Positions 2,953-20,228 of a DNA stretch of 22,994 nucleotides are shown in pieces; position 1 is the stretch's first letter; each line of letters begins with the position of its first letter. The notes below the pieces were generated by a model that did not search any database, was not told the origin of the DNA, and saw only the letters and a list, made by a program, of their open reading frames with translations. A program made the translations under genes and the position numbers. Source of the DNA: a virus; the IMG/VR virus record IMGVR_UViG_3300037071_003180, positions 1 through 22,994 of that record; one strand, given 5' to 3'.

Positions 2953-3203
2953 TCTTCGATCCTGACACCGGGAAACTCATCGACCCCGACGGACTCAAAG
3001 GGGCGGCACGGTACGGGATCGGTCGTGTCACACACGCCGCGTACGATCCCTCTACCGGTGAAGAGGTGTCGTCCGAGAAGCAACAACGCAACCACCTGAA
3101 CCGGCAGCAGGACGAGATGTCGGCCCGCATGGGGTACGACGTCACCTACGGTCAGGCTGACCCAACAGACCGGTCAACCCTCGGGATCACCCCCGACGAG
3201 TAG
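2949..3203 (+). CDS. Hypothetical protein between terminase and portal, 84 aa
   Basis: I do not recognise this protein. It is hydrophilic, rich in Asp, Gly, Gln and Arg, and begins with Asp/Gly/Pro turns. A Lys-Gln-Gln-Arg-Asn-His stretch lies in the middle and is probably helical. There is no membrane segment or cysteine motif. It starts at the GTG of a GTGA overlap with the terminase, so it is probably made by coupled translation. Its TAG stop (3201-3203) also forms the first three bases of a -10-like box that precedes the portal gene. A packaging or head-assembly accessory role is possible by position only. Confidence 0.6.
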   Translation: MIFDPDTGKLIDPDGLKGAARYGIGRVTHAAYDPSTGEEVSSEKQQRNHLNRQQDEMSARMGYDVTYGQADPTDRSTLGITPDE

Positions 3204-3208
3204 CCTCA
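3201..3208 (+). promoter_or_regulatory. Candidate leaderless promoter -10 for the portal gene (TAGCCTCA)
   Basis: TAGCCT at 3201-3206 matches TANNNT and is followed by exactly six bases before the portal GTG at 3213, the spacing expected when transcription begins at the start codon. TAGCCTCA is the variant member of the TANNCTCC octamer family found in other intergenic gaps here. Its first three bases are the stop codon of the upstream gene. No good Shine-Dalgarno precedes GTG 3213, and no -35 box is seen. Confidence 0.55.
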
Positions 3209-3212
3209 GCGC

Positions 3213-5144
3213 GTGGCCGACGTCGAGATCACCTCCATCCCGCCGCCCCCGAAACCGGTCGGTTCAGGTGACCAACCCGTCCAGAAACAAGGCATCCCGC
3301 GAGCCGAAGCGCAACGGTACAACCGCGCCAGCCTTACCGGCCGGGACGTCCGCGCCAACTACGGGGACTACAAAACCGCGACCGACCCCGCGGAGCTCGC
3401 GCTCTCCGGGAAAGTGATCCAGCTTTTCCAGGACGCCCGCGCGTACCGCCGGCCGATGGTCACCGACTGGAGGCGGTGGGATGCGGTGATGAAGAACCGC
3501 ACGTGGATGAGTGGCGCGACGAAATACATGCCGCAACCGGAGATCCCGGAGGTACGCCCCATCATCAGCTCGCTCGTCGCCTACCTGTCCGACAGCCGGC
3601 CCGGGATCGAACTCGCGCCCGCGATGGTCCCCAACACCCCTCAGGCCGAGTTCTGGCAGCAGTGCTGCTGGGATCTTCAGACCGTCGCGGATGCCATCAC
3701 CCACAACGAACTGTCCGAACTGGAGCTAACGAAGGCGATGTTCGACGCCTTCCGGTACGGCACCGGGATCCTCAAAACCACCTGGGACCAGACCCTCAAC
3801 GGCGGACTCGGTGAGGCCCGGATCGACCGCGTCAACCCGTACTGCTTCTACCCGGACCCGCACGCCACATCCGACCGGGACGGCAACTACTTCATTGAAG
3901 CCCGTCGATACTCGCTCCAGGAGTTGGACCGTCGCTTCCCCGGGGCCGGTTCCAAGATCCGGTCTGGTCAGTGGCACGACATCGACGAACCCACTGACCC
4001 CATCGGCGGGCCAAACCCGAAACTCCCACGCGCGAACCCCGGTGCGATCACCGGCCAGAACTACGACGGGCAGACGGCACCCGCCAACCCGCAGTACGGG
4101 TACGGGCTTCCGGGCCAGTCCAATCGCGGTGCCGAATCCAGCGACCTCACCTTCTCCGACGACGTGGTACTCATCGAATGCTGGGTTCGGACCCACCAGC
4201 ATGTGAACCCCCCCATCCCCGACCAGCGTCAGCCAACTTCGACAGTTGAGTCGTGGCGGGTCATCTGCGTCGTCGGGAACTGTGTCCTCCTGGATTCCGA
4301 CGCCAAGGATCTCTACGGACACCCCAACCACCCGTACTCCCGGTACGTGTGCGAGGACGAGGGCGATTTCTGGGGTCAGTCGATGGTGGAGCTTCTCGCC
4401 CCCAGTCAGGTGCAGATCAACAAGTCCCTCGCGTCCATCACCCACAACCTCGACCTCCTCGGCAACCCGGTCCTCAAGGAGAACCAGCAGGCGCAGGTCT
4501 CCCGCCAACTCATCACCAACAAGCCAGGGCAGCGGGTCCTCATGGGCAACGGCGGTGAGGTGGACTGGCTGGACCCGCCCCCCATTCACCCCCTCCACCT
4601 CGACCTCGTCAAGTTCTTCATCGAAGAAATGGAGAGGATCAGCGGCTACAACGCGGTGTCACGCGCCCAGTCCGGTGGCGGGCGGAACTCCACCGACGTC
4701 GTCAACAGCATGCAGGAGGCAGGGTTTGTTCGCATACGGCTCGCTCTCAGGAATCTGGAGTACTCACTCCGTGGCGTCTACACCCGACTCTGCGACCTCG
4801 TCGTCGAGAACTACAGCGCGCCGCGAATACTGGCGATCGCGGGAGAGGACGGCGAACCCCACACGATCGCCCTCCGCGCCCGCCACTTCCAGCTTCCATC
4901 CGAGAACGGAGCCATTCCTCTTCGGTACAACATTCTGGTCAACGCCGGTTCCGCTCTCCCAGTCTCCCGATCCGCCTACCTGGAGCAGATGAACTTCCTG
5001 TTCTCCGTCGGCGCGATCGACCGTAAAGCCCTCCTCGAAGCTCACCGCGTCCCGAAGTGGCAGTTGATCGACAAACGGGTCCAAGCGGAAATCGACGCCG
5101 GCATGCAAGCCGAACAGTCCGCCCGCACCCAAGGCCGTGCCTGA
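3213..5144 (+). CDS. Portal protein
   Basis: The portal forms the dodecameric ring at one capsid vertex through which DNA enters and leaves. The 643-aa length and layout fit long portals of podovirus-like phages: a flexible Pro-rich N-terminus (1-35), then an alpha/beta body with a Val207-Asn-Pro-Tyr-Cys-Phe-Tyr-Pro-Asp motif typical of portal wing regions. A later helical stem/clip region includes Ile-Ser-Gly-Tyr-Asn followed by a Gly-rich loop (about 476-490), and the C-terminus is a charged, Gln/Ala-rich helix. Position directly after the terminase supports the call. GTG 3213 lacks a Shine-Dalgarno but sits six bases after a TAGCCT box. The stop shares a base with the next start (TGATG, 5142-5146). 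The family resemblance is judged from memory. Confidence 0.87.
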   Translation: MADVEITSIPPPPKPVGSGDQPVQKQGIPRAEAQRYNRASLTGRDVRANYGDYKTATDPAELALSGKVIQLFQDARAYRRPMVTDWRRWDAVMKNRTWMSGATKYMPQPEIPEVRPIISSLVAYLSDSRPGIELAPAMVPNTPQAEFWQQCCWDLQTVADAITHNELSELELTKAMFDAFRYGTGILKTTWDQTLNGGLGEARIDRVNPYCFYPDPHATSDRDGNYFIEARRYSLQELDRRFPGAGSKIRSGQWHDIDEPTDPIGGPNPKLPRANPGAITGQNYDGQTAPANPQYGYGLPGQSNRGAESSDLTFSDDVVLIECWVRTHQHVNPPIPDQRQPTSTVESWRVICVVGNCVLLDSDAKDLYGHPNHPYSRYVCEDEGDFWGQSMVELLAPSQVQINKSLASITHNLDLLGNPVLKENQQAQVSRQLITNKPGQRVLMGNGGEVDWLDPPPIHPLHLDLVKFFIEEMERISGYNAVSRAQSGGGRNSTDVVNSMQEAGFVRIRLALRNLEYSLRGVYTRLCDLVVENYSAPRILAIAGEDGEPHTIALRARHFQLPSENGAIPLRYNILVNAGSALPVSRSAYLEQMNFLFSVGAIDRKALLEAHRVPKWQLIDKRVQAEIDAGMQAEQSARTQGRA

Positions 5145-5524
5145 TGTGGCGGCACCGGTTCGACGGTGAGGAATCCTGCATCCTGGAAGGCCCGTCCACC
5201 GACGACCTCAAGGTCACTCTCGCGTCCCCGATCAACCGGCCCCCCGGCAGCATGTGGTACGCGCAGGCGTACATCCGCACATGGAACGCCCTCGCACAGG
5301 AACAGATCCAGCAGTTCACAACCGTTGACGACAACTCCACCGAAACGTTCCTCGACATCAACCTCACGATGACCGTCGCGGACTGGGTGAACATGGGAGT
5401 CAACCCGTCGTACCGCGCGGAATGGGTCGTGCAACTCATCCGGGTTGACGGTGACGGCCAGACCATCACCATCGTCCACGGTCCCGTCGTGTTCACCCTC
5501 CCGACCCCACCGTTCTCCGTCTGA
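5144..5524 (+). CDS. Hypothetical virion protein, 126 aa
   Basis: I do not recognise this protein. It is compact and beta-rich in character, with repeated aromatic/hydrophobic strands (for example Trp-Tyr-Ala-Gln-Ala-Tyr around residue 38 and Trp-Val-Val-Gln-Leu-Ile near 96), no signal peptide and no membrane segment. It may be a small structural or tail-associated subunit. ATG 5144 is chosen because it forms a TGATG overlap with the portal stop. In-frame upstream starts lie entirely within the portal gene. Its own stop overlaps the next ATG (TGATG, 5522-5526), so it is coupled to the likely receptor-binding protein that follows. Confidence 0.65.
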   Translation: MWRHRFDGEESCILEGPSTDDLKVTLASPINRPPGSMWYAQAYIRTWNALAQEQIQQFTTVDDNSTETFLDINLTMTVADWVNMGVNPSYRAEWVVQLIRVDGDGQTITIVHGPVVFTLPTPPFSV

Positions 5525-6765
5525 TGGCCCCGCATCTCGTCAGGGAGGAGGACAGCCCTCCGTGGGACGACTGGGAAACCCCGGAACTCCCTGACCTCCC
5601 TGTCGAACCGTGGGACGCCTTCCCCAACGCGTTCTGGCACCTCAATGTCGCGACAGCCCCCGTCGACACCGTCCGCACCGCGCAGCTCCCCGCGGTCAAC
5701 GTGACGTTCGGGGACTCCAGCGCCGGTCACAGCCCGTACCAGGGTGCGGTCGGTGGCTTCCCGTTCAACCTCATCACCCACGCCACCCCGAAGATCCTCG
5801 CCTGGGACCGGTCCCACTCCCCGATCCGCCGGTTCGTGCTGTTCACCGGGTTCGTCACCGACTACACCCCCGTCGACGTCATGGTGCCGTTCCCCGAACT
5901 GGTGCGACGGGAAGGCGACCCGAACGGGGCGTTCGACAACCACGTCTACCTGTACAACTGGGAAGACAAAGAGCTGTGGGAGATGATCCAGGTCGATCAC
6001 CTCTCCGACTTCCAGGCGTCGCTCGCCACCCAGGGCCGCACCAAATGGGTGATCCAGTACAACGGGGGTGGCACCTACGACCACTGGGACATGAAGATCC
6101 CGTGGGACGCCCCCGGTCAACCCGGTGGTGCGGTCGCCGCCCAGTTCCCCCACCTCCCGTTGTGGGTCCGGTACGAGGAAATCGAAGCCGGTCACATCAA
6201 CCACGCCCTGTTCCTCGCGCTCCCCAACTACGCCACCGGCTGGGTCGAACCGGCCCGCGGCGGTGACGGCGACATCCAGGGCCACCCCCTCCGCGCGGGT
6301 GCCCGCCTCCGTTTGAAGACCTCGGTCCGCAACACGTTCACCGCCGGCACCCCGGAACGCGTCTTCGCGAACGCCCTCACCGAATACGGGTGCATCGTCG
6401 GTGACCGCACCATGCACAACACCGGGGACTACCGCGGTGACACAGGCGGGTTCGCGGTCACGATGGACCCGCGCTGGGGGCCGTTCAACTTCCACACGTT
6501 CCAACTCACCGACTTCGAGGTCATCCCCCCGGTAGCGGAATGGCCGGTCGGCCCACCACCGGACCCTGATCCCGATCCCGATCCTGACCCGGACCCGGAC
6601 CCCGACCCACCACCGCCGGTCACCGGGCTCTCCCCCGTCCAGATCACCCTCCCAGCGGTCACCACCACCGCTGAACTCACCCTCCCCACCGACATCGTCA
6701 CCACCGCCGAGATCACGATCCCGTCGATCACGACCACCGTCTACATTGACCTTTCACCTTCCTGA
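5524..6765 (+). CDS. Probable tail or host-surface-interacting protein with (PD)8 linker, 413 aa
   Basis: The protein has three parts. Residues 1-345 form a Trp/His-rich globular region. It contains an Ile-Glu-Ala-Gly-His-Ile-Asn-His-Ala-Leu stretch followed by Pro-Ala-Arg and Arg-Leu-Arg-Leu segments, which resembles actinobacterial secreted proteins with a 'EAGHIDHAL' motif that I recall but cannot name as a family. Residues 346-361 are eight Pro-Asp repeats flanked by polyproline, a rigid acidic linker. The last 40 residues are three or four Thr-rich strand repeats of about 11-12 residues (pattern I/L-T-L/I-P-x3-T-T-A-E). A globular head on a stiff linker with a beta-repeat end suggests an attachment or receptor-binding part. 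Enzymatic activity cannot be claimed. Confidence 0.55.
   Translation: MAPHLVREEDSPPWDDWETPELPDLPVEPWDAFPNAFWHLNVATAPVDTVRTAQLPAVNVTFGDSSAGHSPYQGAVGGFPFNLITHATPKILAWDRSHSPIRRFVLFTGFVTDYTPVDVMVPFPELVRREGDPNGAFDNHVYLYNWEDKELWEMIQVDHLSDFQASLATQGRTKWVIQYNGGGTYDHWDMKIPWDAPGQPGGAVAAQFPHLPLWVRYEEIEAGHINHALFLALPNYATGWVEPARGGDGDIQGHPLRAGARLRLKTSVRNTFTAGTPERVFANALTEYGCIVGDRTMHNTGDYRGDTGGFAVTMDPRWGPFNFHTFQLTDFEVIPPVAEWPVGPPPDPDPDPDPDPDPDPDPPPPVTGLSPVQITLPAVTTTAELTLPTDIVTTAEITIPSITTTVYIDLSPS
6559..6606 (+). repeat. Hexanucleotide repeat encoding (Pro-Asp)8
   Basis: Eight tandem copies of CCN-GAY code for Pro-Asp. The third bases vary (CCT/CCC/CCG with GAT/GAC), so selection appears to keep the peptide rather than the DNA. 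It sits between the globular domain and the C-terminal strand repeats of the 413-aa protein and probably acts as a stiff, charged spacer. Confidence 0.9.
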
Positions 6766-6778
6766 CCCTGAGCTCCGG

Positions 6779-6786
6779 TAACCTCC
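6779..6786 (+). promoter_or_regulatory. Candidate leaderless promoter -10 (TAACCTCC)
   Basis: TAACCT (6779-6784) is followed by six bases and then ATG 6791. It lies in the 25-base gap between two genes, and no Shine-Dalgarno precedes the ATG, as expected for a leaderless mRNA. It is a full match to the TANNCTCC octamer. A TTGACC at 6746-6751 is 27 bases upstream, too far for a normal -35. Confidence 0.58.
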
Positions 6787-6790
6787 CCTC

Positions 6791-6979
6791 ATGCCCACTA
6801 CCCGCAAGTACGGACACGGTCAGGGCTACGGTTCCGGCCCCACCCCCAGCACCATCCGCGGCAAGTCCGTCGACGGCGGCGACGACTTCTACGTCCAGAA
6901 GATCGATCGTGACACCGCCGACTGGCGGCAGGAGGATTCGGAGAACGGCCTCCCCGAACCCCACGGCCCCAAGTCGTGA
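6791..6979 (+). CDS. Hypothetical small protein, 62 aa
   Basis: I do not recognise this protein. It is very hydrophilic, Gly- and Tyr-containing at the N-terminus and acidic at the C-terminus, with no hydrophobic core to suggest a stable single fold. It may be a partner or an extended linker protein. ATG 6791 follows a candidate leaderless -10 box by six bases. The stop overlaps the next gene (GTGA, 6976-6979), so it opens a new coupled unit leading into the esterase-domain and tail-spike genes. Confidence 0.6.
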   Translation: MPTTRKYGHGQGYGSGPTPSTIRGKSVDGGDDFYVQKIDRDTADWRQEDSENGLPEPHGPKS

Positions 6980-7269
6980 CACGGGTCGTCGCGGCGCAGA
7001 ACGTGACCAACACCGCGTCGAAGATCCTCACCACCAAAGGTGGTTCCGCGGAGGAACCCGACTGGTTCATCATCCAGAACAACGCGTCGGACGAGACCGT
7101 GTACATCGCGATCGTGTTGCGTGGCACGACCGGTGGGACCGCCACCGCGAACAACACCCATTTCCCCATCGCGCCGGGTGGGTCGATTCAGGTGAACAGC
7201 GTGTCCCCTGAGGACGTGTGGGCGTACTCCGCGAACGGCGCTCCGGTGTCCATCATCACCAGGTTCTAA
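6976..7269 (+). CDS. Hypothetical virion-type beta protein, 97 aa
   Basis: This small protein has a pattern of short hydrophobic strands separated by Asn/Gly/Thr turns, for example Trp-Phe-Ile-Ile-Gln-Asn, then Val-Tyr-Ile-Ala-Ile-Val, then Ile-Ala-Pro-Gly-Gly-Ser-Ile-Gln-Val. That sequence style is common in small phage structural proteins with a jelly-roll or immunoglobulin-like fold. I know no specific family. GTG 6976 overlaps the previous stop (GTGA). The TAA at 7267-7269 is followed two bases later by the GTG of the esterase-domain gene. Its position next to tail-protein genes suggests a tail or fibre accessory role, which is inference. Confidence 0.62.
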   Translation: MTRVVAAQNVTNTASKILTTKGGSAEEPDWFIIQNNASDETVYIAIVLRGTTGGTATANNTHFPIAPGGSIQVNSVSPEDVWAYSANGAPVSIITRF

Positions 7270-7271
7270 CC

Positions 7272-9485
7272 GTGACGAAGATCCTCGACATCGGGTGGGA
7301 GGAGATGCGGGATCCGACGACCGGGGCTGGCAGCCAGCCGTATTTCTCCGGGCCGACCACCACCGGATCCTCCAGTGTCGGCGCGATTCGCACCGGTAAC
7401 ACCCTCCTCGCAGCGGAAGTCGGATCCCTGCTCGGACCGATGTTCCAACCGGGGGGTTCTGTCAGCGACAATCCCACCCTTCTCGGCGGGAACCCGGCCC
7501 GGGCCGGCAAATCGATGGTGGCGCTCGACATCTCCGATTACGGGGCTGGTCTCATCCAGAACCCGATGATGTACTTCTATTTCGGGAACGGGGTGTCAAC
7601 CGTCCCGAATCTCACCACATGGTCGGCGCGGATCATCATGCGATGCCCGCTCCCGTTCGGGTCCACCGCCGCCCACATTTTCTCCGGGCTCAAACACACC
7701 GGGGCGTCACTCACCCCAACGGTCACGAACTGGGCGTTGGCCGGCCAGTGGAACGCCCTCACCGTCAACCGGAAGATCATCGTCCTGAACGGGACCGGAG
7801 GTGGCGGCACCCTCCAGTACACCGGGGACGCGTCACAGTCCTGGGGGATGAACGGGTGGGGACGGCTGGAAGTCCAGGCCGACAGCACCTTCGCAGGCCC
7901 CAACATCGTGTGGCGCTGGTACCAGAACGATTCCACCACCGCGTACCTCGGGCCTCTCTGGGGGACGGTGAACGGCAACGCCGACGCATGCGGGTTCGTG
8001 CTGGGCGACATGTACAACCTGCCGCTCGCACTTGAGGACACCACCTACCACATCGGTGAGGTCGAGGCGTGGAGCACCCGTGACGCCGACGGTGAGATGT
8101 CCAACACCTGGTCCGCGGCGGCGGGTGGGGCGTTCACATCCACCCCCACCCCGAACGGCCAACGCGGGGGTGTCGGTGACCCGATCTGGTCATTCCCGAC
8201 CGCCACCTACCACCGTCACCAGGACACCCCGGCCCTCCCACCCCACACCTTCCACTCGTCCATCCCGTACGGCAACAACGGTCGGGTCTTCAACCTGTGG
8301 ATCCCGGGTGGCACCCCGTCGAACACCGGGGGTTGGCCGTGTGTGGTGTCAACCCACGGCGGGTTCTGGACATCCGGTGACCGCGGCCAGGTCCCCCAAG
8401 CTTGGCTTGCCGCGATGCTCGGGGCCGGCATCGCGGTCATGTCCCCCGAATATGTCCTCGGGTCGATCTGCGGCACCCCGGTCAACGTCACGAACGTCTA
8501 CCCGGCGTACGGATCGGCGGGGATCGGAACCGGGTCCGCGGGTGGCGGGGCACGGTTCCCCAGTGACATCTGTGACGTGAAGCTGTCCGTCGTCCGGTTG
8601 AAAGCGAAGTACGCGCACGGGGTTGTTGGCACCGCTCTCACGAACGGCACCGGGTGGGGCATCAACCCGAACCTCGTCGGGATCGGCGGGTTCAGCGCCG
8701 GGTCGAACACCGGTCTGATGGCGGCGTTCACGAAAGGGCTCGCGGACAACGGGCTCGGGGTCGACTGCCGGATGGCGACCGCGGACGGCGGGCTGTACAA
8801 CACCGATGAGACCGGTGCCCACAACCTGTCCGCCGACCCGTCATTCATTTTCGTCCTCGGTTATGCCATCCCGTGGGATCTCGAACTCGCCGTCAACAAC
8901 GACTGGGGGAACACCCCCGCGGCCCCCAACCGGTTCGGGGTCCTCAAATCGTCGTCGTTCGGCAGCGGGCAGGCTGACACTGTGGTGCGCTGCACGATGA
9001 AAGCCCGGTACGCGACGTGGATCGACGGCACCATGCCGTCACTCGCCCAACAGCAGGCCCTCGGGATCACGAACGCCGTCACCCTCAATCCGTCCGCCGC
9101 CACCAACATGTGGTGCCGTGGGGTGTGGGGTTACTCCGATTTCCTCATCGGGATCCAACACAAGAATCAGGCTGACGCGTTCATGCCGGCGAAAGTCGCG
9201 CACTGGGAATCCACGACCGTCCCGTCAATCCACGACTGGACGCACCACATCGGCAAGATCGGTTTCCCGGACGACATCGCGTTCATCGCCGCCGCGGTTG
9301 CCGCCCAAGGTGTCACTCCCCCCGACCCGCCTGCTGTCGGGTTCGCGGGTGGACTCAACGTCCCGCGTCTCACCACGATCGCCACCATCGCGACCCCGAT
9401 CGGTGGCACCCGCGACACTGGTGTCACCCCTGTCGGCACCCTCACCTGGGACGGTGGGAACTGGAACGACGGGAACTGGACGTGA
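7272..9485 (+). CDS. Tail-associated protein with alpha/beta-hydrolase (esterase-like) domain, 737 aa
   Basis: Residues about 60-280 are Gly/Trp/Asn-rich and strand-forming and resemble a concanavalin/LamG-type carbohydrate-binding domain. Residues about 315-670 look like an alpha/beta-hydrolase. They contain a His362-Gly-Gly oxyanion-hole motif, a nucleophile elbow Gly-Phe-Ser475-Ala-Gly, and a candidate acid Asp505 in Asp-Gly-Gly. A late His cluster (His654, His658 or His659) in an Ile-His-Asp-Trp context could supply the catalytic base. The C-terminus ends in repeated Gly-Asn-Trp. No signal peptide is visible. Such an enzyme on a virion could remove ester-linked groups (for example acetyl) from surface polysaccharide during adsorption. 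The fold is supported by motifs; substrate and virion location are inferred. GTG 7272 avoids overlap with the preceding gene. Confidence 0.72.
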   Translation: MTKILDIGWEEMRDPTTGAGSQPYFSGPTTTGSSSVGAIRTGNTLLAAEVGSLLGPMFQPGGSVSDNPTLLGGNPARAGKSMVALDISDYGAGLIQNPMMYFYFGNGVSTVPNLTTWSARIIMRCPLPFGSTAAHIFSGLKHTGASLTPTVTNWALAGQWNALTVNRKIIVLNGTGGGGTLQYTGDASQSWGMNGWGRLEVQADSTFAGPNIVWRWYQNDSTTAYLGPLWGTVNGNADACGFVLGDMYNLPLALEDTTYHIGEVEAWSTRDADGEMSNTWSAAAGGAFTSTPTPNGQRGGVGDPIWSFPTATYHRHQDTPALPPHTFHSSIPYGNNGRVFNLWIPGGTPSNTGGWPCVVSTHGGFWTSGDRGQVPQAWLAAMLGAGIAVMSPEYVLGSICGTPVNVTNVYPAYGSAGIGTGSAGGGARFPSDICDVKLSVVRLKAKYAHGVVGTALTNGTGWGINPNLVGIGGFSAGSNTGLMAAFTKGLADNGLGVDCRMATADGGLYNTDETGAHNLSADPSFIFVLGYAIPWDLELAVNNDWGNTPAAPNRFGVLKSSSFGSGQADTVVRCTMKARYATWIDGTMPSLAQQQALGITNAVTLNPSAATNMWCRGVWGYSDFLIGIQHKNQADAFMPAKVAHWESTTVPSIHDWTHHIGKIGFPDDIAFIAAAVAAQGVTPPDPPAVGFAGGLNVPRLTTIATIATPIGGTRDTGVTPVGTLTWDGGNWNDGNWT

Positions 9486-9495
9486 GGAGATCGCC

Positions 9496-11415: not shown

Positions 11416-11423
11416 CCGCCCGC

Positions 11424-11431
11424 TACACTCC
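11424..11431 (+). promoter_or_regulatory. Candidate promoter -10 (TACACTCC) before the capsid-assembly genes
   Basis: TACACT (11424-11429) fits TANNNT and the octamer TANNCTCC, and lies in the 33-base gap after the tail spike. A start of transcription six or seven bases downstream would leave a very short leader of about 12 bases that begins at the AAGGAGG ribosome site. No -35 element is apparent. Confidence 0.55.
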
Positions 11432-11436
11432 CAACC

Positions 11437-11443: not shown

Positions 11444-11448
11444 CCCCC

Positions 11449-11589: not shown

Positions 11590-11991
11590 GTGGCCGTCGG
11601 CGGTCGCACGACCAACACGTTCCCGGAGATCCTCACGGAAATCCTGCGGGACCTCGCGATCGCGCAGACACTCCCGGACACCGACCTGGAGTTCGCGTCC
11701 CAGTTGAACGCGATGATCACCGCGAAGCTCCGGGAGCCGATCGACAACGCGACGGCGTCGATGCCACCCGGTCAGGGTCCGACGGCGGGTGCGATGGGTC
11801 CGTCGGTTGGTGGGCCTCCGGGTGGCCCGCCGTTGATGGCACCCCCTGGTGGCCCGCCGCCTCCCGGTGGACCGCCTCCGGGTATGCCACCGATGGGTCC
11901 GCCGCCGATGCCGGGTGGCGCGGGTGGTCCCCCTCCGGGTCTCCGCAACCCCGGTCCTTCCCCTGACGAGCTCTCACGTCTACTCGGCTAG
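11590..11991 (+). CDS. Protein with Pro/Gly-rich tail upstream of scaffold, 133 aa
   Basis: The first 65 residues look folded and helical, with a Leu/Ile-rich segment (Phe-Pro-Glu-Ile-Leu-Thr-Glu-Ile-Leu-Arg-Asp-Leu). From about residue 57 to 125 the protein is almost wholly Pro, Gly and Met in Gly-Gly-Pro-Pro patterns, followed by a short polar end that finishes in Leu-Leu-Gly. This is probably a disordered tail attached to a small helical domain. Start GTG 11590 comes three bases after the previous stop, so translation is likely coupled. Place and composition suggest a capsid-assembly accessory protein, without a recognised family. Confidence 0.6.
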   Translation: MAVGGRTTNTFPEILTEILRDLAIAQTLPDTDLEFASQLNAMITAKLREPIDNATASMPPGQGPTAGAMGPSVGGPPGGPPLMAPPGGPPPPGGPPPGMPPMGPPPMPGGAGGPPPGLRNPGPSPDELSRLLG

Positions 11992-12012
11992 TCCCTCTCA
12001 CCGGAGTACCAA

Positions 12013-12996: not shown

Positions 12997-13028
12997 CCCA
13001 GGATCACCCCCCACTGCTTTCCCCCGTG

Positions 13029-13036
13029 TAACCTCC
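13029..13036 (+). promoter_or_regulatory. Candidate promoter -10 for the major capsid gene (TAACCTCC)
   Basis: TAACCT (13029-13034) lies in the 86-base gap between scaffold and capsid genes and is a full match to the TANNCTCC octamer. Transcription starting about seven bases downstream would give a leader of about 40 bases that ends in GAGGAGGT, the strongest ribosome site type in the window. A separate, leadered promoter for the most abundant virion protein would make sense. No -35 is seen. Confidence 0.55.
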
Positions 13037-13070
13037 ACAGTGCTGCCCCGGCCAACCCAACCGGCGATCT

Positions 13071-13078
13071 GAGGAGGT
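13071..13078 (+). promoter_or_regulatory. Ribosome binding site deciding a TTG start (GAGGAGGT)
   Basis: GAGGAGGT ends four bases before TTG 13083. The next in-frame ATG is 22 codons further on with no comparable site, so this element fixes the capsid gene start at TTG. Confidence 0.8.
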
Positions 13079-13082
13079 CACC

Positions 13083-14078
13083 TTGGCCGGATCACCCACC
13101 GCGATCGGGACGAATGTGGTGACGTCCATCAGTCGGCAGTACATCATGCCGACGGTTGTGGACAACTGCTACAACTCGAACCCCGTGTTCTTCCGCATCA
13201 ACAAGTCGAAGCGGTTCATCAAGGGCGGCACCCAGATCGAAGTGCCCCTCATGTACTCCCGCTTCACGAACGGCGGGGCGTACGAGGGCCTCGACGTCCT
13301 CACCATCAGCCCATCGGACACCATCAAGAACGGTGTGTGGGACTGGCGGCAGTACTACGTGTCGGTCGCGGTCGATGGCCGCACCCTCATCAAGGTCGAT
13401 TCCCCCGAAGCGATCGCGAACTTCCTGAAGCTCCAGTTCGCCCAGGCCGAGATGGAAATGGCCGCGAACCTCGGTGCCGACCTGTGGGGCACGAACACGG
13501 CGGGCAGCGTCGTCGGGGCCGGGAAGCAGATCGACGGCATCCCCAACGCCGTCGACGGTTCCACCACCTATGGCGGGCTCACAACCGCCGCGAACCCGTG
13601 GTGGGCGGCGCAGGAGTACGCCGGCACCGAAGCCCTGTCGCTCGACATCCTGAACTCGAAGCTGTGGTCAGCGGCGAGTGAGGGCGGTCGGCATCCGACG
13701 CTCATCGTGTCCCGCCAGCAGGCGTACGACTCCTACTACAAGCTCGCGGTGTCGAAGCAGAACATCTACCAGGGCCCGGTCTCCTACGACGAACAGTTGT
13801 TCGCCGGAGGGTTCACCAACCTGCTGTTCAACGGCATCCCGTGGACAACCGACCCGAACGTCCCCAACAGTGGCGGCACGATCGGTTCCGACATCTACCT
13901 CCTCAACGAGGACTACATCTACTGGTGCATCTCCCCCCGCGGTGACATGTTCGTCACCGATTTCCAGGAGGGCATCAACCAGGACGCCATGGTCGCCAAG
14001 ATCCTGTGGGCCGGCAACCTCGTCGTCACCAACCGTGCCCGTCACGCCAAGGCTGTCGCCCTGGCTCCCGCAGCCTGA
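13083..14078 (+). CDS. Major capsid protein (HK97-fold type, probable)
   Basis: The 331-aa protein is the right size and sits between the scaffold and a decoration-like gene. It shows features of capsid proteins assembled on a scaffold. A short N-arm is followed by a strand-rich region with Gly-Gly-Thr-Gln-Ile-Glu-Val-Pro-Leu, which looks like an E-loop. A helix follows (Phe-Leu-Lys-Leu-Gln-Phe-Ala-Gln-Ala-Glu-Met-Glu-Met, about residues 114-130), resembling the long spine helix. Later strands include Pro-Arg-Gly-Asp-Met-Phe-Val, ending near Thr-Asn-Arg-Ala-Arg-His. TTG is used as start, fixed by GAGGAGGT at 13071-13078. I am confident of the role; the fold is inferred from family knowledge. 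Confidence 0.88.
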   Translation: MAGSPTAIGTNVVTSISRQYIMPTVVDNCYNSNPVFFRINKSKRFIKGGTQIEVPLMYSRFTNGGAYEGLDVLTISPSDTIKNGVWDWRQYYVSVAVDGRTLIKVDSPEAIANFLKLQFAQAEMEMAANLGADLWGTNTAGSVVGAGKQIDGIPNAVDGSTTYGGLTTAANPWWAAQEYAGTEALSLDILNSKLWSAASEGGRHPTLIVSRQQAYDSYYKLAVSKQNIYQGPVSYDEQLFAGGFTNLLFNGIPWTTDPNVPNSGGTIGSDIYLLNEDYIYWCISPRGDMFVTDFQEGINQDAMVAKILWAGNLVVTNRARHAKAVALAPAA

Positions 14079-14084
14079 GGAGGT
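14077..14084 (+). promoter_or_regulatory. Ribosome binding site for the decoration gene (GAGGAGGT)
   Basis: The same GAGGAGGT sequence used for the capsid gene overlaps the capsid TGA stop and precedes GTG 14092 by seven bases. It supports high expression of both proteins. Confidence 0.75.
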
Positions 14085-14091
14085 CTGACTA

Positions 14092-14592
14092 GTGGCAGAC
14101 AAGATGTTCACGAACCAGTCCGGTGCCTACGGCCTCGCGGTCGACGGCGACACCGGTCCCAGCGTCGTCATGTCGTTCCGTGTCGCGGAGTCATCCTCCG
14201 CGGCGACCACGATCAACAAGGGGCAGGTTGTCACCATCGGCACCGACCAGCGGGTCAGTGCGGGGGCGGCAGTCACCGGCATGGCGGTCGGCATCGCGAC
14301 CGAAACCGTCACCATCCCCGACACCGACGCCCCGACGACCACCGGGTTCACGAACGACCCCCAGTACCGGGGGCCACGTGAGATCTCGGTGTGCGTGTTC
14401 GGACTCGCGGAAGCCCAGGTGTCCGGCACGACCGTCGCCGCCGGCATCGCGGTGTCGACCGACGCCAACGGCCGTGTCACCACCGCAGGCACCGCGTCCG
14501 GCAACTACACCGTCGGGCGGGCCGTCGAGTCCACCGCCGGCACCGCCGGGGATTTCAAGACGATCTGGGTCGATCCGGCCCGCGTCCCCTGA
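14092..14592 (+). CDS. Probable capsid decoration (head stabilisation) protein, 166 aa
   Basis: This Gly/Ala/Thr/Val-rich beta protein begins with an Asn-Gln-Ser-Gly-Ala-Tyr-Gly stretch. It then has strands such as Gly-Gln-Val-Val-Thr-Ile-Gly and Val-Gly-Ile-Ala-Thr-Glu-Thr-Val-Thr-Ile, with a last strand near Thr-Ile-Trp-Val-Asp. Composition, size and the place just after the major capsid gene match small capsid decoration proteins of the DUF2190-like type, which cap the shell. The match is from style and synteny, not a clear signature. GTG 14092 has GAGGAGGT upstream. A strong terminator follows 14 bases after the stop, so this gene ends the capsid unit. Confidence 0.7.
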   Translation: MADKMFTNQSGAYGLAVDGDTGPSVVMSFRVAESSSAATTINKGQVVTIGTDQRVSAGAAVTGMAVGIATETVTIPDTDAPTTTGFTNDPQYRGPREISVCVFGLAEAQVSGTTVAAGIAVSTDANGRVTTAGTASGNYTVGRAVESTAGTAGDFKTIWVDPARVP

Positions 14593-14605
14593 TCCACGGC
14601 ACGGC

Positions 14606-14640
14606 ACCTCCCTCACCCACTCCCCGGGTGAGGGAGGTTT
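14606..14640 (+). terminator. Rho-independent-type terminator after the capsid genes
   Basis: A perfect inverted repeat, CCTCCCTCACCC (14607-14618) and GGGTGAGGGAGG (14626-14637), forms a 12-bp GC-rich stem with a seven-base loop. It can extend by one A-T pair at its base. TTT follows. The T-run is short, as often in high-GC genomes. It lies between the decoration gene and a new promoter-like box at 14647, so it separates two transcription units. Confidence 0.88.
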
Positions 14641-14646
14641 CGCGCG

Positions 14647-14654
14647 TACACTCC
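14647..14654 (+). promoter_or_regulatory. Candidate promoter -10 (TACACTCC) after the terminator
   Basis: TACACT (14647-14652) starts seven bases past the TTT of the terminator and matches the TANNCTCC octamer exactly. A leader of roughly 20 bases would carry GGAAAGG (14666-14672) before ATG 14681. A promoter directly after a terminator is strong positional support for the motif being functional. Confidence 0.62.
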
Positions 14655-14680
14655 GATAGGCCAACGGAAAGGTTCTCACC

Positions 14681-15301
14681 ATGCTCGACGGTCCAGGCGA
14701 ATTCGTGACCCTCACCCTCAAGGTCACCCCCACCGACAACAACCGGTTCCGGTACCGGTACATGGGGAACTGGGCGACCCTCCAGCTCGACCGGCCGCAG
14801 ACGGTGCCGTGGGGCCACATGGTGTACCTGCTCGGTGACCCGTTCTACACCGGCAAGGACCGCGAGATCGCGTACAACAACATCTGTCTCCGCGCCGGGG
14901 TGCTCCCCGGGATGGATCTCCCGTACTCCATGATCGTCGAAGACCAGGACGGGGACCGGATCTCCACCGTCGTTGACGATCCCGAAGGCGCGAACGCCCT
15001 CGAATCGAAGTCCGACAAGTTGGATCCGGTCGCGATCCGTCAGGCCATGATCTCCATGCAGCGCCGCATGGCCGACCTTGAACGCCAGCTTTCCGAATCG
15101 GAGGCCCGTGAAGCCGCCGACCCGGAAACACCGGATCTCCCGAAGCCGTCCGCGAAAGCCCGTGCGTCCCGCCGGAAGGACACCACGACCCGCGCCGCCG
15201 AGTCCCCGGTCCCGACCATCAACCCGGATGATCACGGTTCATCGGACCCGTCCGGGGGAATCATCCCTGACGACATGCCCACCCAACTCCCCGTCAGCTA
15301 G
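14681..15301 (+). CDS. Hypothetical virion-region protein, 206 aa
   Basis: The N-terminal 100 residues look folded: strands such as Val-Thr-Leu-Thr-Leu-Lys-Val and Phe-Arg-Tyr-Arg-Tyr, then a Trp-Gly-His-Met-Val-Tyr-Leu-Leu-Gly-Asp segment and Cys-Leu-Arg. Residues 120-145 form a charged helix that may be a coiled coil (Met-Gln-Arg-Arg-Met-Ala-Asp-Leu-Glu-Arg-Gln-Leu). The last 60 are Pro/Ser/Thr-rich and probably disordered. I know no family for it. A ribosome site (GGAAAGG, 14666-14672) supports ATG 14681. It opens the unit after the capsid terminator, so a minor head or connector role is possible but unproved. Confidence 0.62.
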   Translation: MLDGPGEFVTLTLKVTPTDNNRFRYRYMGNWATLQLDRPQTVPWGHMVYLLGDPFYTGKDREIAYNNICLRAGVLPGMDLPYSMIVEDQDGDRISTVVDDPEGANALESKSDKLDPVAIRQAMISMQRRMADLERQLSESEAREAADPETPDLPKPSAKARASRRKDTTTRAAESPVPTINPDDHGSSDPSGGIIPDDMPTQLPVS

Positions 15302-15310
15302 GAGACCATC

Positions 15311-15616
15311 ATGGCGAAGACCGAACTCACCGAAGACGAACAGGCCGCACAGGATCTCGCGGAGGCCCGCAAGGAAGAGGCCGAAGCGTGGGTCGCCGCG
15401 CACCCTGAGGACACCGTCCAGGCCGATCAGCTCCGCGCTGCCGGCGTCATCCCCGACACCCCCGTCGACAAGCCGTCCACCCCGTCGTCGCGCGCGAAGA
15501 CCGGTGAGCAGTCCCCGGCGCAGAAGGCCCGCGAGAAGGCCCAAGAGAAGGACACCGCGAAGTCCGAGAACACCGCGAAGGCGACAGGGCTCGGGTCATC
15601 GTCCACCCGGAAGTAG
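15311..15616 (+). CDS. Hypothetical Ala/Lys/Glu-rich protein, 101 aa
   Basis: The protein is helical at the N-terminus (Glu-Asp-Glu-Gln-Ala-Ala-Gln-Asp-Leu-Ala-Glu-Ala-Arg-Lys-Glu), then Pro/Thr/Ser-rich, and ends in a Lys/Ala/Thr-rich basic stretch. It has no hydrophobic core and is probably extended or disordered in its second half. GGAGA (15301-15305) sits five bases before ATG 15311. The 3' end overlaps the next open frame, which is shifted by -1 and lacks a normal start. The relation between the two is unclear. Function is unknown. Confidence 0.6.
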   Translation: MAKTELTEDEQAAQDLAEARKEEAEAWVAAHPEDTVQADQLRAAGVIPDTPVDKPSTPSSRAKTGEQSPAQKAREKAQEKDTAKSENTAKATGLGSSSTRK

Positions 15617-15936
15617 ACGACCACCGGATCCGTTGGGCGCGGGCCCTCACCGCGATCGCGCACACCCTCACCGACCTCCGGGGGGAACTCGCGACGATCG
15701 ACGTTGCGCTCATCGAAACCCGGTACGCCGTCGCGACCACCGACCGGCATGAACGCGCCTGGGAGTTCGAACGCGCCTACGAGGTCTCCACCAAAGAGCT
15801 CCGCATCCAACACGCGAAAGTCGACGCGGAGCTCCGTGCATACACGAACGCCCATTACGTCGTGAAGCTGTACCTCGAACTGGGGATCCCCTATCAGCAC
15901 GCCCTGGATCCGACACCGGTCCCGGCCGACGACTGA
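15598..15936 (+). CDS. Protein-coding ORF without a canonical start codon, about 105-112 aa
   Basis: The frame is open from 15508 to TGA 15934-15936. From about 15600 it reads like a genuine protein: helices containing Trp-Ala-Arg-Ala-Leu-Thr-Ala-Ile-Ala, Leu-Arg-Gly-Glu-Leu, Ala-Trp-Glu-Phe-Glu-Arg-Ala-Tyr and Lys-Leu-Tyr-Leu-Glu-Leu-Gly-Ile-Pro-Tyr. The C-terminus is Pro/Asp-rich. The other two frames look unlike protein here. The only in-frame ATG, GTG or TTG is GTG 15862, which would leave 24 residues. The given start is ATC 15598, a guess; ATC 15628 is an alternative. Entry by -1 shift from the upstream gene is possible, but I find no slippery heptamer. Otherwise 15617-15936 would be an unexplained gap. 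Confidence 0.5.
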   Translation: MVHPEVDDHRIRWARALTAIAHTLTDLRGELATIDVALIETRYAVATTDRHERAWEFERAYEVSTKELRIQHAKVDAELRAYTNAHYVVKLYLELGIPYQHALDPTPVPADD

Positions 15937-15945
15937 CCCCACCGG

Positions 15946-15953
15946 TAGCCTCC
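15946..15953 (+). promoter_or_regulatory. Candidate leaderless promoter -10 (TAGCCTCC)
   Basis: TAGCCT (15946-15951) is followed by exactly six C residues and then ATG 15958. It lies in a 21-base gap, no Shine-Dalgarno precedes the ATG, and the octamer match is full. This is the cleanest of the leaderless candidates. No -35 is seen. Confidence 0.62.
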
Positions 15954-15957
15954 CCCC

Positions 15958-18387
15958 ATGGCGCGTGACGACCTGAACTGGATCTCCCTCGTCGATTTCT
16001 CACCGGGGATCTACTCCAAATACGGGGCGTCATCCACCCTCGGGAAGGACGGTGCGGCCCGCATCGACGACGGCACCCAGGACACCCGGTACACGTTCGG
16101 GTGCTACGGCGACCCTGACGGTGGCCTGCGTCCCCTCCCCGGTCTGATCCGTTCCTACGTCAAAGACACCCATGACGTCACGGAACACGCCCACCATGTC
16201 CGCCCGCATCACACCTACCCGACTTCCAGCGCGATCGGAGCTCCACCGGGCGCGGGTGCGGTGAACGGACTCACGTTCCGTCAACACCCCACCACCCGTG
16301 CGTTGGGCACTTCTGACGGCGGTCGACGCGCCAAGATCGGTGTGATCGACATGCTGGTCGAAACCGCGGAACCGGTCGAATGGTCGACGTTCTGGCGGGA
16401 GGACTCCTGGTTCGGTGACGTCCCCGGTTACGTCGAAGCCGGATACAAGGATCGTGAGGGGGCGTCCCGCCCCGACCAGGTCCATTTCATCACCGCGTTC
16501 CGTCAGGACCCGGTGCCGCTCTCAGAGGACCCCGATTCCATGTTCCCGCGTTGGGGACGCCTCCGCTCCCAGTGGCGGCGGTTCATGCTCGGCCACTACG
16601 ACCCGTCCATCGGCAACGACCTGTACGACTACGAGTGGATCCAGTGCTCCCACGCCGACCTCGCGGAAGAGGATTCCTGGTGGATCGTCGACCAATCGAA
16701 CCTCCCTCACTACATCGAAATCGGGTACTACCCCCTCAACGACCAACGCATCCCGGTGTGGCCCGGGAACGCTGTTCCACCCCCACCGACCCCACCGTCG
16801 ATCATGTCGTACAACATCCCGATGCACATGACGAACATGTGGGGGGCCGGCGCGAAGAACCACAACGGGTGGGGCCGCGGGAACCTGTCCCGCGGTCGTG
16901 CGATCACTTCCGTCCCGAACTCTGAGGAGGTCACCCTCGACGCCCTCCAGGACCCGGGTTCGAACGTTGTTGTCGCCTGCTTCCAGTCGTACACGTCGCT
17001 CGGTTCCCCCGCTGGCATGGTCGAGGAGTACCTCGCGAACTTCTGGACGTACATCGGGGGTGACAACCCACCGGACGGCATCCTCGGCAACGGCCAGTCG
17101 ATCGTCCTCCCCCACTGGGATTCCGATTTCCTCGCGATCCAGTCGTCGTGGTGGACGACGATCACCCTCCCCGAGTTCCTCACCGAACACCAGGACCAGT
17201 TCGTCGGGATCATCCGGGACTACGGGGCGTACCACGGTGTGTTCGGCAACATGCGGGGCAGTGCCATCCACCCGCGTTCCACATACCGGTTCACGTGGTC
17301 GAACGCGATGCGGGTCCTGTGGCGACCCCCGACCGCGGGCGCGATCGCGAACGACGGGATCGAAGCCCAGTACGCCGACATGTGGTTCTGGTCGAAACGG
17401 GCTGATGAAACGTGGGGTGGTGTCTCATCGTCGTACCTCGGGACCCCACCGGGCACCACGAACCTCGTCACCCCCGGCTCCGTCAAGACGTACCCGGTGG
17501 CTCCGGGACCGATGGTCCCCGGGAACCAGATCGGGGAGATCTCCTGCCTGTTCTCCTGGCAGAACACCCTTGTGTTCGTGCCGGCCACCGGGGAAGGCAG
17601 CATCATCAAAGGCAGCCTTGTCACGTCCGCGGTGATCCGCACCGGGACCCTCATCCCGACCGGTGGCGTGGCATCCATCCCCGTTACCCTCCCCACCGGG
17701 GTCGCATATGGCACCACGGAAGGGGTGGCGTTCTGGTCGGGGGAGAAAGCGGACATCATCTCCCCGCAGCTTGACGGGGATTTCTGGATCTCCGATGACG
17801 CCAACGAATGCCGTGGCCCCGACGGCTACCGGCACACCGCGGAAGCCAGCATGGGACGGTTCGGGTACCTGTACCCGTTCGTGTACGCCCCGAACAACTG
17901 GGTGATGGACACCCGGACCGGCGGCTGGTTCCGGCTCGTCAACCCGGACGACCCCAACCCGTACGCCTACATGCATTACATGGCGAACGAATCCGGGGAA
18001 ATGTATGCAGCGCGGGGGTGTTACGACGACGTCAACACCGATGTCCTCGGCCTGTTCTCATCGCAGCACCGCGCCACCCGGTTCCGCTGGGTGAGCCAAC
18101 CCCTCATGTCGACCATCAACCGTGAGCAGACGGTCGAACGCCTGAACCTCGTCGCGCAGGGTCAAGGGGTGGTCACCATCAACCTCGTCGGGATTGACGG
18201 CACCGAACAGACCGAAACGGCGGTCATCGACTCGGTTCGGTCCGCGGAACAGGTCGTGATCCCGACGTCAATGCACAGCTCCGATCTCACCGTGATCATC
18301 ACGTCGGAAGGTGTCGACGGTGGGGAAGCCCCCACGGTCCACGCCCTCCATCTCGGCACCCGCGACGGACGGCAGCAAACCCGATGA
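15958..18387 (+). CDS. Candidate tail nozzle/tubular protein, 809 aa
   Basis: This is the largest gene of the window. The product is Trp-, Gly- and Pro-rich with many short strands throughout, has no transmembrane or signal segment, and opens with an Asp-Phe-Ser-Pro-Gly-Ile-Tyr motif. Such N-terminal 'FSPGI' motifs are typical of large podovirus tail-tube or nozzle proteins, in the same size class as T7 gp12. The C-terminal 110 residues include Glu-Arg-Leu-Asn-Leu-Val-Ala-Gln-Gly-Gln-Gly-Val-Val-Thr-Ile, a beta-barrel style found at the end of such proteins. The adaptor candidate two genes later supports a short-tail apparatus. Identity is inferred from size, motif and place. ATG 15958 follows a leaderless -10 box, and the stop overlaps the next start (ATGA, 18384). 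Confidence 0.58.
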   Translation: MARDDLNWISLVDFSPGIYSKYGASSTLGKDGAARIDDGTQDTRYTFGCYGDPDGGLRPLPGLIRSYVKDTHDVTEHAHHVRPHHTYPTSSAIGAPPGAGAVNGLTFRQHPTTRALGTSDGGRRAKIGVIDMLVETAEPVEWSTFWREDSWFGDVPGYVEAGYKDREGASRPDQVHFITAFRQDPVPLSEDPDSMFPRWGRLRSQWRRFMLGHYDPSIGNDLYDYEWIQCSHADLAEEDSWWIVDQSNLPHYIEIGYYPLNDQRIPVWPGNAVPPPPTPPSIMSYNIPMHMTNMWGAGAKNHNGWGRGNLSRGRAITSVPNSEEVTLDALQDPGSNVVVACFQSYTSLGSPAGMVEEYLANFWTYIGGDNPPDGILGNGQSIVLPHWDSDFLAIQSSWWTTITLPEFLTEHQDQFVGIIRDYGAYHGVFGNMRGSAIHPRSTYRFTWSNAMRVLWRPPTAGAIANDGIEAQYADMWFWSKRADETWGGVSSSYLGTPPGTTNLVTPGSVKTYPVAPGPMVPGNQIGEISCLFSWQNTLVFVPATGEGSIIKGSLVTSAVIRTGTLIPTGGVASIPVTLPTGVAYGTTEGVAFWSGEKADIISPQLDGDFWISDDANECRGPDGYRHTAEASMGRFGYLYPFVYAPNNWVMDTRTGGWFRLVNPDDPNPYAYMHYMANESGEMYAARGCYDDVNTDVLGLFSSQHRATRFRWVSQPLMSTINREQTVERLNLVAQGQGVVTINLVGIDGTEQTETAVIDSVRSAEQVVIPTSMHSSDLTVIITSEGVDGGEAPTVHALHLGTRDGRQQTR

Positions 18388-19523
18388 GCCCGTCGGTCCC
18401 GTTCCCGATCGATCAGGCCAGCATGCCGCCGATCACGGAACCGTTCCCCGAGTTCTATCCGCCGTCCACCTCCCCGAAGATCACGTCGCTGTGGTTCCGG
18501 TACGACCAGGAGATGGTCGAATCCGGTCTCCCGTCGGTCAACGAACCCCGGTACGGTCCCGCGCTCGCGAACATGTACGCCGGGACGTGGGGTGGGGCGT
18601 ACTCGTACGAAGGGGAGTACGACTGGTGTCAGGGGAACATCACCGCGACCACCCCCAGTTTCAGCGGGAACTACTCCGGGATCCCCGGCGGCACCCGCGC
18701 CACCAACATGCACAACATGTACCTGCGGAACGGGTTCCGGTTCTTCACCGAAACCGCGTATCAGGATGTCGCTCAGGCAAACGTCCTCACCGCGTCGGAT
18801 CTCCCACCCGGACAGGGCATGGTGGACGGGCAGCCGTACACCGGGATGATCCGGGTCACCGCCCCCCGTGACCGCCCCCTCCCTGTCAACATCACGTACT
18901 CCGGTGACTGGAAGGTGGGGGGGCAACGACATCCGGCGCTCGGAGGGTGGACCGACTTCACGGAACGCCGCCTTCTGGTGATGTCGTGGAACGCCCTGTA
19001 CCGCTCGAAGTTCCAGCCGTCCGGTACCACCCTCGACTGGAACAGTGCGACCCACGCCGCGATTTGGATGACCCGCGGCCCCGACTACCACTCGTTTTTC
19101 TGGTTCGGTGAACGCGGCCCTCTCGCCGGGACCTCCATCGACTCCGGGAACCAGCCCGGTCACTACCTCTCCCTCAACGTGTGGGACACCGTCGACCCGG
19201 GTGAAACCGTCTACTACTGGTTGGCCCGGTGGGTGTCGTCGAACAAGATGTGGTTGGAGCAGACCACCACCCCGGGTCGGCCCATGAACGGCATCGCGGA
19301 CGGGTACGGGAACGCAGGGTGGCACCCCCCGTTCTCCTGGCAGTTCGATCCATCGATCCCGGCAGGGTCCGTCACCACCGCCAACACCTCCTCCTACACC
19401 TTCCCGTCATATGTCGGTCAGGGCCTGTTCATGAACGACGTCACGGTCGACAACCCCCCGTACGAGGCTGAACTGTGGAACCTGAATCACCGCTCCCACT
19501 GCTTCCAGGTGGTCACGTTCTAG
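18384..19523 (+). CDS. Hypothetical tail-region structural protein, 379 aa
   Basis: This Trp/Tyr/Pro/Gly-rich protein has a strand-forming pattern, for example Leu-Trp-Phe-Arg-Tyr, Phe-Phe-Trp-Phe-Gly-Glu and Tyr-Tyr-Trp-Leu-Ala-Arg-Trp. It has no membrane segment or known catalytic motif. Aromatic-rich beta proteins next to tail genes often form or decorate tail structures or bind sugars, but I do not recognise this one. The ATGA overlap at 18384 couples it to the 809-aa protein, so the two probably function together. Its TAG stop (19521-19523) is the start of the -10-like box for the next gene. Confidence 0.6.
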   Translation: MSPSVPFPIDQASMPPITEPFPEFYPPSTSPKITSLWFRYDQEMVESGLPSVNEPRYGPALANMYAGTWGGAYSYEGEYDWCQGNITATTPSFSGNYSGIPGGTRATNMHNMYLRNGFRFFTETAYQDVAQANVLTASDLPPGQGMVDGQPYTGMIRVTAPRDRPLPVNITYSGDWKVGGQRHPALGGWTDFTERRLLVMSWNALYRSKFQPSGTTLDWNSATHAAIWMTRGPDYHSFFWFGERGPLAGTSIDSGNQPGHYLSLNVWDTVDPGETVYYWLARWVSSNKMWLEQTTTPGRPMNGIADGYGNAGWHPPFSWQFDPSIPAGSVTTANTSSYTFPSYVGQGLFMNDVTVDNPPYEAELWNLNHRSHCFQVVTF

Positions 19524-19528
19524 ACTCC
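19521..19528 (+). promoter_or_regulatory. Candidate leaderless promoter -10 (TAGACTCC)
   Basis: TAGACT (19521-19526) is followed by six bases (CCCTCC) and ATG 19533. It matches the octamer TANNCTCC exactly and overlaps the stop codon of the preceding gene. No Shine-Dalgarno precedes ATG 19533, which fits leaderless translation. No -35 is seen. Confidence 0.58.
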
Positions 19529-19532
19529 CTCC

Positions 19533-20228
19533 ATGCCGCTGACCCTCGGTGACGCCCGGATCGCCCTACGCGACAGGCTTGACGAATCAGCGGGCCGGCG
19601 GTGGACAGACGCCGAGTTGAACCGGTATCTGGCGGAAGGCGCGACCGACATTTCGAGGCGTGCCGAAACGAACATCCGCAAGTTCACGATCACGGGCACC
19701 CTCAACATCTCGGAGTACCCGGTTCCGTCCCTTCCGTACGACATTCTGCGCCTCCACCGTGCGGAATGGCAGCCGACCGCTGACACGAAGATCCGTTCAC
19801 TGGAGTACCGCGACCTCCAGAACATGGATGCTGTCTGGTTCGACGAGCAGGCGTCCGCGACTCGCCGCCAACCCGAGTTCTGGACCCTCCTCGGCTATCC
19901 ACCGGAGCTCGTCGTGAAAGTGTGGCCGGTGCCGTCCGACGGCGGGAACCTCATCATCCACGCCTACTGCACCCCGATGCCCCCGGCGTCCGATCCGACC
20001 CCCATCGACCTCCCCGCCGGGTGGGCGAACCTCACCGTCGACTACGCCGAGATGCGCGCGTTGAGGAAGGACGCCGATCCGCGGTGGAAGGATGCCCTCG
20101 GCAACTACGAATCCTCCATCGTCACCATGATCGACAACACCCGGCGGTACACCGATCAGAACACGGTGATCTCACCTGAAGTCCCTCACCTCCCAACCTG
20201 GATCTACGCCGACACCTGGGGGTACTGA
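19533..20228 (+). CDS. Head-tail adaptor-like protein, 231 aa
   Basis: The N-terminus resembles phage adaptor proteins (DUF6682/gp6-like): a first helix with Ala-Arg-Ile-Ala-Leu-Arg-Asp-Arg-Leu-Asp, then Arg23-Trp24-Thr-Asp-Ala-Glu-Leu-Asn-Arg-Tyr-Leu-Ala-Glu-Gly, then a further helix ending in Ile-Ser-Arg-Arg. The middle contains a strand region (Leu-Val-Val-Lys-Val-Trp-Pro-Val-Pro) and the end more helix (about residues 168-205). Such proteins dock under the portal and join it to the tail. In this phage it would connect to the candidate nozzle. The start follows a leaderless -10 box. The stop overlaps the next ATG (TGATG, 20226-20230). Confidence 0.72.
   Translation: MPLTLGDARIALRDRLDESAGRRWTDAELNRYLAEGATDISRRAETNIRKFTITGTLNISEYPVPSLPYDILRLHRAEWQPTADTKIRSLEYRDLQNMDAVWFDEQASATRRQPEFWTLLGYPPELVVKVWPVPSDGGNLIIHAYCTPMPPASDPTPIDLPAGWANLTVDYAEMRALRKDADPRWKDALGNYESSIVTMIDNTRRYTDQNTVISPEVPHLPTWIYADTWGY

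Follow-up and report, generated by a model that had tools for sequence, protein, structure and literature searches.

Genes and sites of the structural module

The DNA analysed here (the window) is a virus record of IMG/VR, 22,994 bases long with a GC content of 65%, and represents a 23-kb fragment from which the early region of the phage is absent. It carries a tailed-phage structural module, with genes for the terminase large subunit, the portal, the capsid and other virion proteins, nearly all on the plus strand (Table 1); no tRNA genes were found in a search of the window and six relatives. A short gene for a probable membrane protein (719–809, GTG 719, MNDPPLILVLLSLIIIGFAVWAGINFWNNR) sits between the listed open reading frames, and the gene 11590–11991 encodes a long Pro/Gly-rich stretch (11740–11950). 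The same phage appears in a second viral record, as the 5.7-kb viral contig L010 (IMGVR_UViG_3300037070_003402) is almost identical to positions 1450–7100 of the window. Isolates with a capsid related to that of the window (13083–14078) are all distant (at most 29% identity); Myxococcus phage Mx8 and a Bradyrhizobium phage are among them, and cultured actinophages gave no match to this protein.

Table 1. Genes, candidate -10 elements and other features of the window
Feature	Position	Strand	Details
Terminase large subunit gene	1282–2952	+	phrog_2, E 1.4e-28
-10 hexamer TAGCCT	3201–3206	+	leaderless spacing, 6 nt before GTG 3213 of portal gene
Portal protein gene	3213–5144	+	phrog_156, E 2.5e-29; downstream of the 3201 promoter
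-10 and extension TAACCTCC	6779–6786	+	leaderless spacing, 6 nt before ATG 6791 (62-aa gene); identical in L010
-10 and extension TACACTCC	11424–11431	+	leadered; Shine-Dalgarno AAGGAGG, then ATG 11449
-10 and extension TAACCTCC	13029–13036	+	leadered promoter of major capsid gene; Shine-Dalgarno GAGGAGG, TTG 13083
Major capsid protein gene	13083–14078	+	phrog_9953, E 1.7e-48; query for finding relatives
Hairpin, 13-bp stem, 7-nt loop, then TTT	14606–14638	+	after gene 14092–14592; fold -30.6 kcal/mol
-10 and extension TACACTCC	14647–14654	+	directly after terminator; leadered; Shine-Dalgarno GGAAAGG, ATG 14681
-10 and extension TAGCCTCC	15946–15953	+	leaderless spacing, 6 nt before ATG 15958 (809-aa gene, gp20)
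TANNCTCC match inside gene 15958–18387	17685–17692	+	no start codon at promoter distance
-10 and extension TAGACTCC	19521–19528	+	leaderless spacing, 6 nt before ATG 19533 (gp22)

The octamer TANNCTCC matches the plus strand of the window seven times and the minus strand not once: six matches lie in gaps between genes (6779, 11424, 13029, 14647, 15946 and 19521) and one lies inside a gene (17685), while a seventh gap, at 3201, holds the variant TAGCCTCA. The counts in the gaps agree with the original prediction, which had described six exact copies and one variant in seven intergenic gaps and had taken them to be phage promoters. The total is not significant (3.84 ± 1.77 expected by chance over both strands of the whole window, 7 being reached in 9 of 100 shuffles), and this dinucleotide expectation is superseded by tests of placement. 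In about 0.4 kb of gaps, six copies were seen against 0.04 expected (Poisson P ~4e-12, a post hoc value since the motif was picked from these gaps); inside genes, one was seen against 1.8 expected by codon shuffling, and this in-gene match probably arose by chance. All seven TANNNT hexamers of the gaps read TANNCTC[C/A], and the plus strand of the remaining 22.5 kb holds only 11 more TANNNT.

The distance to the start codon is equally specific. TANNNT followed by exactly six bases precedes four of the 597 ATG or GTG triplets of the plus strand, all four being true gene starts (GTG 3213, ATG 6791, ATG 15958 and ATG 19533), and none of the 919 triplets of the minus strand. These four sites lack a Shine-Dalgarno sequence, and at the other three (11424, 13029 and 14647) one lies between the -10 and the start, so that both halves of the predicted arrangement were recovered from the sequence. 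The absence of a -35 element was likewise confirmed, the best TTGACA matches (1–4 of 6 bases) being no better than the random mean of 2.8.

Several sites have particular surroundings. At two of them the TAG of the -10 is also the stop codon of the preceding gene (3201–3203 for gene 2949–3203, 19521–19523 for gene 18384–19523). The same overlap of the TA with a TAG or TAA stop is seen at 9 of 38 spacing-6 sites in automatic gene calls (for example in the relatives L002, L009, L011, L012, L059 and L091), and one triplet is then predicted both to end a gene and to start a promoter. Between 13029 and 13083, TAACCTCC is followed by ACA GTG CTG CCC CGG CCA ACC CAA CCG GCG ATC TGA, which may encode a leader peptide of 10 codons, its stop overlapping the Shine-Dalgarno sequence of the capsid gene. 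One site had been placed directly after a terminator: upstream of 14647 the hairpin is there, but its T run is just TTT, and we regard it as a probable intrinsic terminator. An equivalent hairpin (-28.0 kcal/mol) occurs in L002, where the orthologue of gene 14681 shows the order hairpin, TAACAT, Shine-Dalgarno sequence, ATG.

Conservation in related viral loci

Relatives were found with the capsid protein and its alignment, giving 62 viral loci, or 49 after de-duplication. Among the latter, TANNNT precedes called starts at spacing 6 in 35 cases and at spacing 7 in 12, against 5.9 per spacing elsewhere (P ~3e-16). A spacing of 6 sets the TA in frame with the start, and stop codons could therefore mimic the signal, so the other in-frame spacings were checked: none of spacings 0, 3, 9 and 12 has a comparable peak, and the peak at 6 persists when sites overlapping a called stop codon are removed (29 vs ~5).

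The TANNNT-N6 sites recur at orthologous genes of diverged relatives, namely those of the portal, gp20 and gp22. At the portal start, spacing 6 is also found in L011, L012, L002, L074/L109 and L083, and spacing 7 in L110. The gp20 orthologues have TAGTCTCCTCGC directly before ATG in L009 and TAGAAT-N7-ATG in L002, and gp22 orthologues with TANNNT-N6-start occur in L002, L059, L069, L081, L091 and L108. The leadered capsid promoter also has a counterpart, a TATGCT about 40 nt before the ATG of the L002 capsid gene, with a Shine-Dalgarno sequence. What follows the hexamer varies: orthologous promoters keep TANNNT-N6-ATG with extensions such as TAGGATGATGTG, TAAGATACAACT and TATCCTGTACCC, the portal sites reading TAATCTCCCATC, TAGGATGATGTG and TAAGATACAACT, and no long conserved promoter sequence was found across orthologous sites. 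The expectation that related phages would share the motif thus holds for TANNNT and its 6-nt spacing but fails for the octamer, and in the sequences of the relatives the conserved unit is the hexamer with its spacing.

Host and sigma factor

A WhiB protein is encoded by 11 of 24 relatives, and by neither the window nor its closest long relative, G001; WhiB proteins are common in actinobacteriophages (PMC8612146), and the search matched only Corynebacterium among 14 control genomes. From the WhiB proteins of these relatives, the hosts are therefore predicted to be Actinomycetota. Sigma-70 regions 2 and 4 (Sigma70_r2, Sigma70_r4) are absent from all 25 records, in a search whose controls matched. 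A search for single-subunit RNA polymerases matched no control and is thus uninformative, and a capsid alignment search of 84,980 genomes found no prophage with a related capsid.

In Actinomycetota, TANNNT serves as the -10 box of SigA, and many genes are leaderless. A TANNNT some 12 nt upstream is the mark of such genes in Actinobacteria (Zheng et al. 2011, PMC3160421), the M. tuberculosis promoter is a TANNNT without a -35 (Cortes et al. 2013, PMC3898074), and for S. avermitilis and M. smegmatis the share of leaderless transcripts is 22–24% (PMC8780764, PMC6448022). The four leaderless-spaced sites of the window share the distance of such promoters, their lack of a -35 and of a Shine-Dalgarno sequence, their ATG or GTG starts, and the weakly informative middle three bases seen in high-GC genomes (PMC3160421; PMC3898074); the spacing of 6 nt falls in the 6–7 nt expected of them. 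The window sites differ in lying on a phage, clustered in a structural module, and in the uniformity of position 5 (C) and of the two bases behind the T (CC). Comparable sites are found in a bacterial chromosome: in the actinobacterial genome G402 (68% GC), spacing 6 is the commonest for TANNNT ahead of starts (19 sites), followed by 12, 11 and 7 sites at spacings 7–9 and about 2 at most others. Its sites, such as TAGCCTCTTCCC and TACCCTCCCTCT directly before ATG, resemble the TAGCCTC type of the window and show C at position 5 in 47% of cases and at position 7 in 63%; window-like sites therefore exist in chromosomes. Two very GC-rich genomes (G369 and G422) had too few sites for a profile with simple gene calls.

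Depletion of TANNNT inside genes

When synonymous codons were shuffled within each of 26 curated genes (the plus-strand genes of the window, 33–22993), 111.5 ± 10.5 TANNNT were expected on both strands and 21 were seen, a ratio of 0.19 or an approximately five-fold depletion. Other distances between TA and T mostly gave 0.8–0.9, and 0.5–0.7 at multiples of three, partly because TA is avoided across codon borders. In sequences of very high GC the test partly overstates depletion at such multiple-of-three gaps; it was therefore run again on curated genes with codons shuffled inside each gene, and on other phages. Relatives at 52–57% GC show the depletion clearly on the sense strand (L002 0.44, L059 0.40, L070 0.36, vs ~0.8 at other gaps), weakly in L007 (0.75). 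The ratio is 0.24 in the Streptomyces phage phiC31 and 0.89 in the Pseudomonas phage phiKMV, which has a similar GC content and where depletion is nearly absent. Myxococcus phage Mx8 (0.38 vs 0.55 at gap 6) and, weakly, a Bradyrhizobium phage (0.54) are depleted too, so actinophages are not alone in showing the purge; distant low-GC phages showed no TANNNT depletion. In rough gene calls, the genes of actinobacterial chromosomes are depleted as well.

Stray -10 motifs are selected against in bacteria, being under-represented in coding and over-represented in regulatory sequence (Froula and Francino 2007, PMC1939733), as in the window, and in mycobacteria the density of TANNNT has been linked with stray transcription (PMC4128351). 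The former study covers 42 bacterial genomes and does not mention phages, whereas the purge described here is in a phage, about five-fold and on both strands. It is the more striking part of the results, the promoters themselves being of an ordinary type.

Reading of the sites and of their extension

Taken together, the seven sites are very probably promoters that consist of a -10 with no -35 and are recognised by the housekeeping sigma factor of the host; four of them would give leaderless mRNAs, and CTCC would form no separate code. Read as -10 elements, four leaderless-spaced and three leadered, they accord with the original prediction, and their spacing is conserved at orthologous genes of diverged relatives. 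From the sequence we infer that host RNA polymerase with a sigma factor of the SigA/HrdB type would read all seven elements, spread through the structural module. With the -10 placed 6 nt ahead of the start codon at 3201, 6779, 15946 and 19521, transcription should begin at that codon or within about one base of it, so that the host ribosome would initiate directly on leaderless messages. A longer distance, with a Shine-Dalgarno sequence in it, separates the -10 from the start codon at 11424, 13029 and 14647, and the 14647 promoter would re-start transcription past the terminator. The portal, capsid, gp20, gp22 and some small genes would thus be transcribed separately.

Does the extension carry a meaning of its own? 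At position 5 and at the two positions that follow the T, 20 of 21 bases in the window sites are C, against 45% C in the gaps (P 1.4e-6, post hoc), and CTCC is present at 6 of 7 window sites and 5 of 21 distinct GC-rich sites of relatives (Fisher p 0.007), the latter having C at position 5 in 8, at position 7 in 12 and at position 8 in 12. None of 14 lower-GC relative sites has CTCC. The idea that these bases go beyond TANNNT therefore survives as a description of the window, where they vary less than would be expected from composition or from relatives, but not as a conserved recognition unit, relatives having replaced the extension. It looks like a bias or preference, at high GC, of this phage or of its host, and not a separate recognition code, with the uniformity of the window left as a weak residue that neither composition nor relatives fully explain. 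Among actinobacterial chromosomes, TANNCTCC-N4-ATG occurs 306 times in 49 named genomes against 192 for reversed controls, and counts of a variant in 397 sampled genomes of the phylum are mostly small; no genome or clade in either set is dominated by TANNCTCC before ATG, which is a minor class throughout.

That TANNCTCC is a true extended -10 of late genes, contacted by a host sigma variant or by a phage protein on the host polymerase, is in our view unlikely; if it were, the late structural genes would be switched on together. We give still less credence to the octamer being a late promoter code specific to the phage, read either by a sigma factor of the phage's own or by one of the host's that a phage protein has reprogrammed. 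Such a code would fit the unexpected uniformity of the extension and the position of all sites in the structural (late) region, and the missing early region could hold the gene of a transcription factor. Against it, none of the 25 records encodes sigma-70 region 2 or 4, orthologous promoters retain TANNNT and the spacing while losing CTCC, and the genes are purged of TANNNT in general, not just of TANNCTCC, as actinobacterial chromosomes are in rough gene calls; the phage-directed factor that had been suggested thus finds no support and is not needed to explain the sites. The promoters of mycobacteriophage Adephagia (PMC11373665) provide a comparison: there too a host SigA-like -10 occurs in an actinophage, with one predicted leaderless transcript (P90), but in the repeated Adephagia promoters the -35 and -10 lie 17–18 bp from each other as parts of a long conserved element that contains inverted repeats, whereas the window conserves the -10 only.

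A Shine-Dalgarno-like or start-associated element of translation would account for the constant spacing between motif and start at four genes, and the cluster K mycobacteriophages do own a start-associated sequence of unassigned role, short and repeated just before many starts of one phage (PMC3203893). This sequence, GGGATAGGAGCCC, is a different one and is not above chance in the window (4 matches with at most three mismatches vs 9.6 expected). Moreover, CTCC is anti-Shine-Dalgarno-like in the sense strand and cannot pair as a Shine-Dalgarno sequence, three sites lie well upstream of the start codon with a separate Shine-Dalgarno sequence in between, the spacing of 6 is that of a -10, and a translational signal would need no purge on both strands; a role in translation is thus highly improbable. 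Scarcely credible, finally, is a functionless TA..CTCC thrown up by C-rich gaps (45% C) beside stop codons, two sites using the TAG of the preceding gene, given that the spacing peaks at 6, is conserved at orthologous genes of independent relatives, and that TANNNT is nearly absent elsewhere in the window.

Implications for uncultivated actinophages

Under the preferred reading, that of ordinary host-type -10 promoters, the structural module does not appear to be a single long late operon; the results suggest that host-type promoters lie at several points within it and that diverged phages have retained them at the same genes. The approximately five-fold purge, also found in phiC31, suggests that a bare -10 may suffice for harmful stray transcription in these phages, and the depletion of TANNNT could be of use in picking out actinophages from metagenomic contigs. 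The shortness of the host -10, its independence of a -35 and its fixed distance from the start codon would make promoters and leaderless starts readable from sequence alone in uncultivated actinophages.
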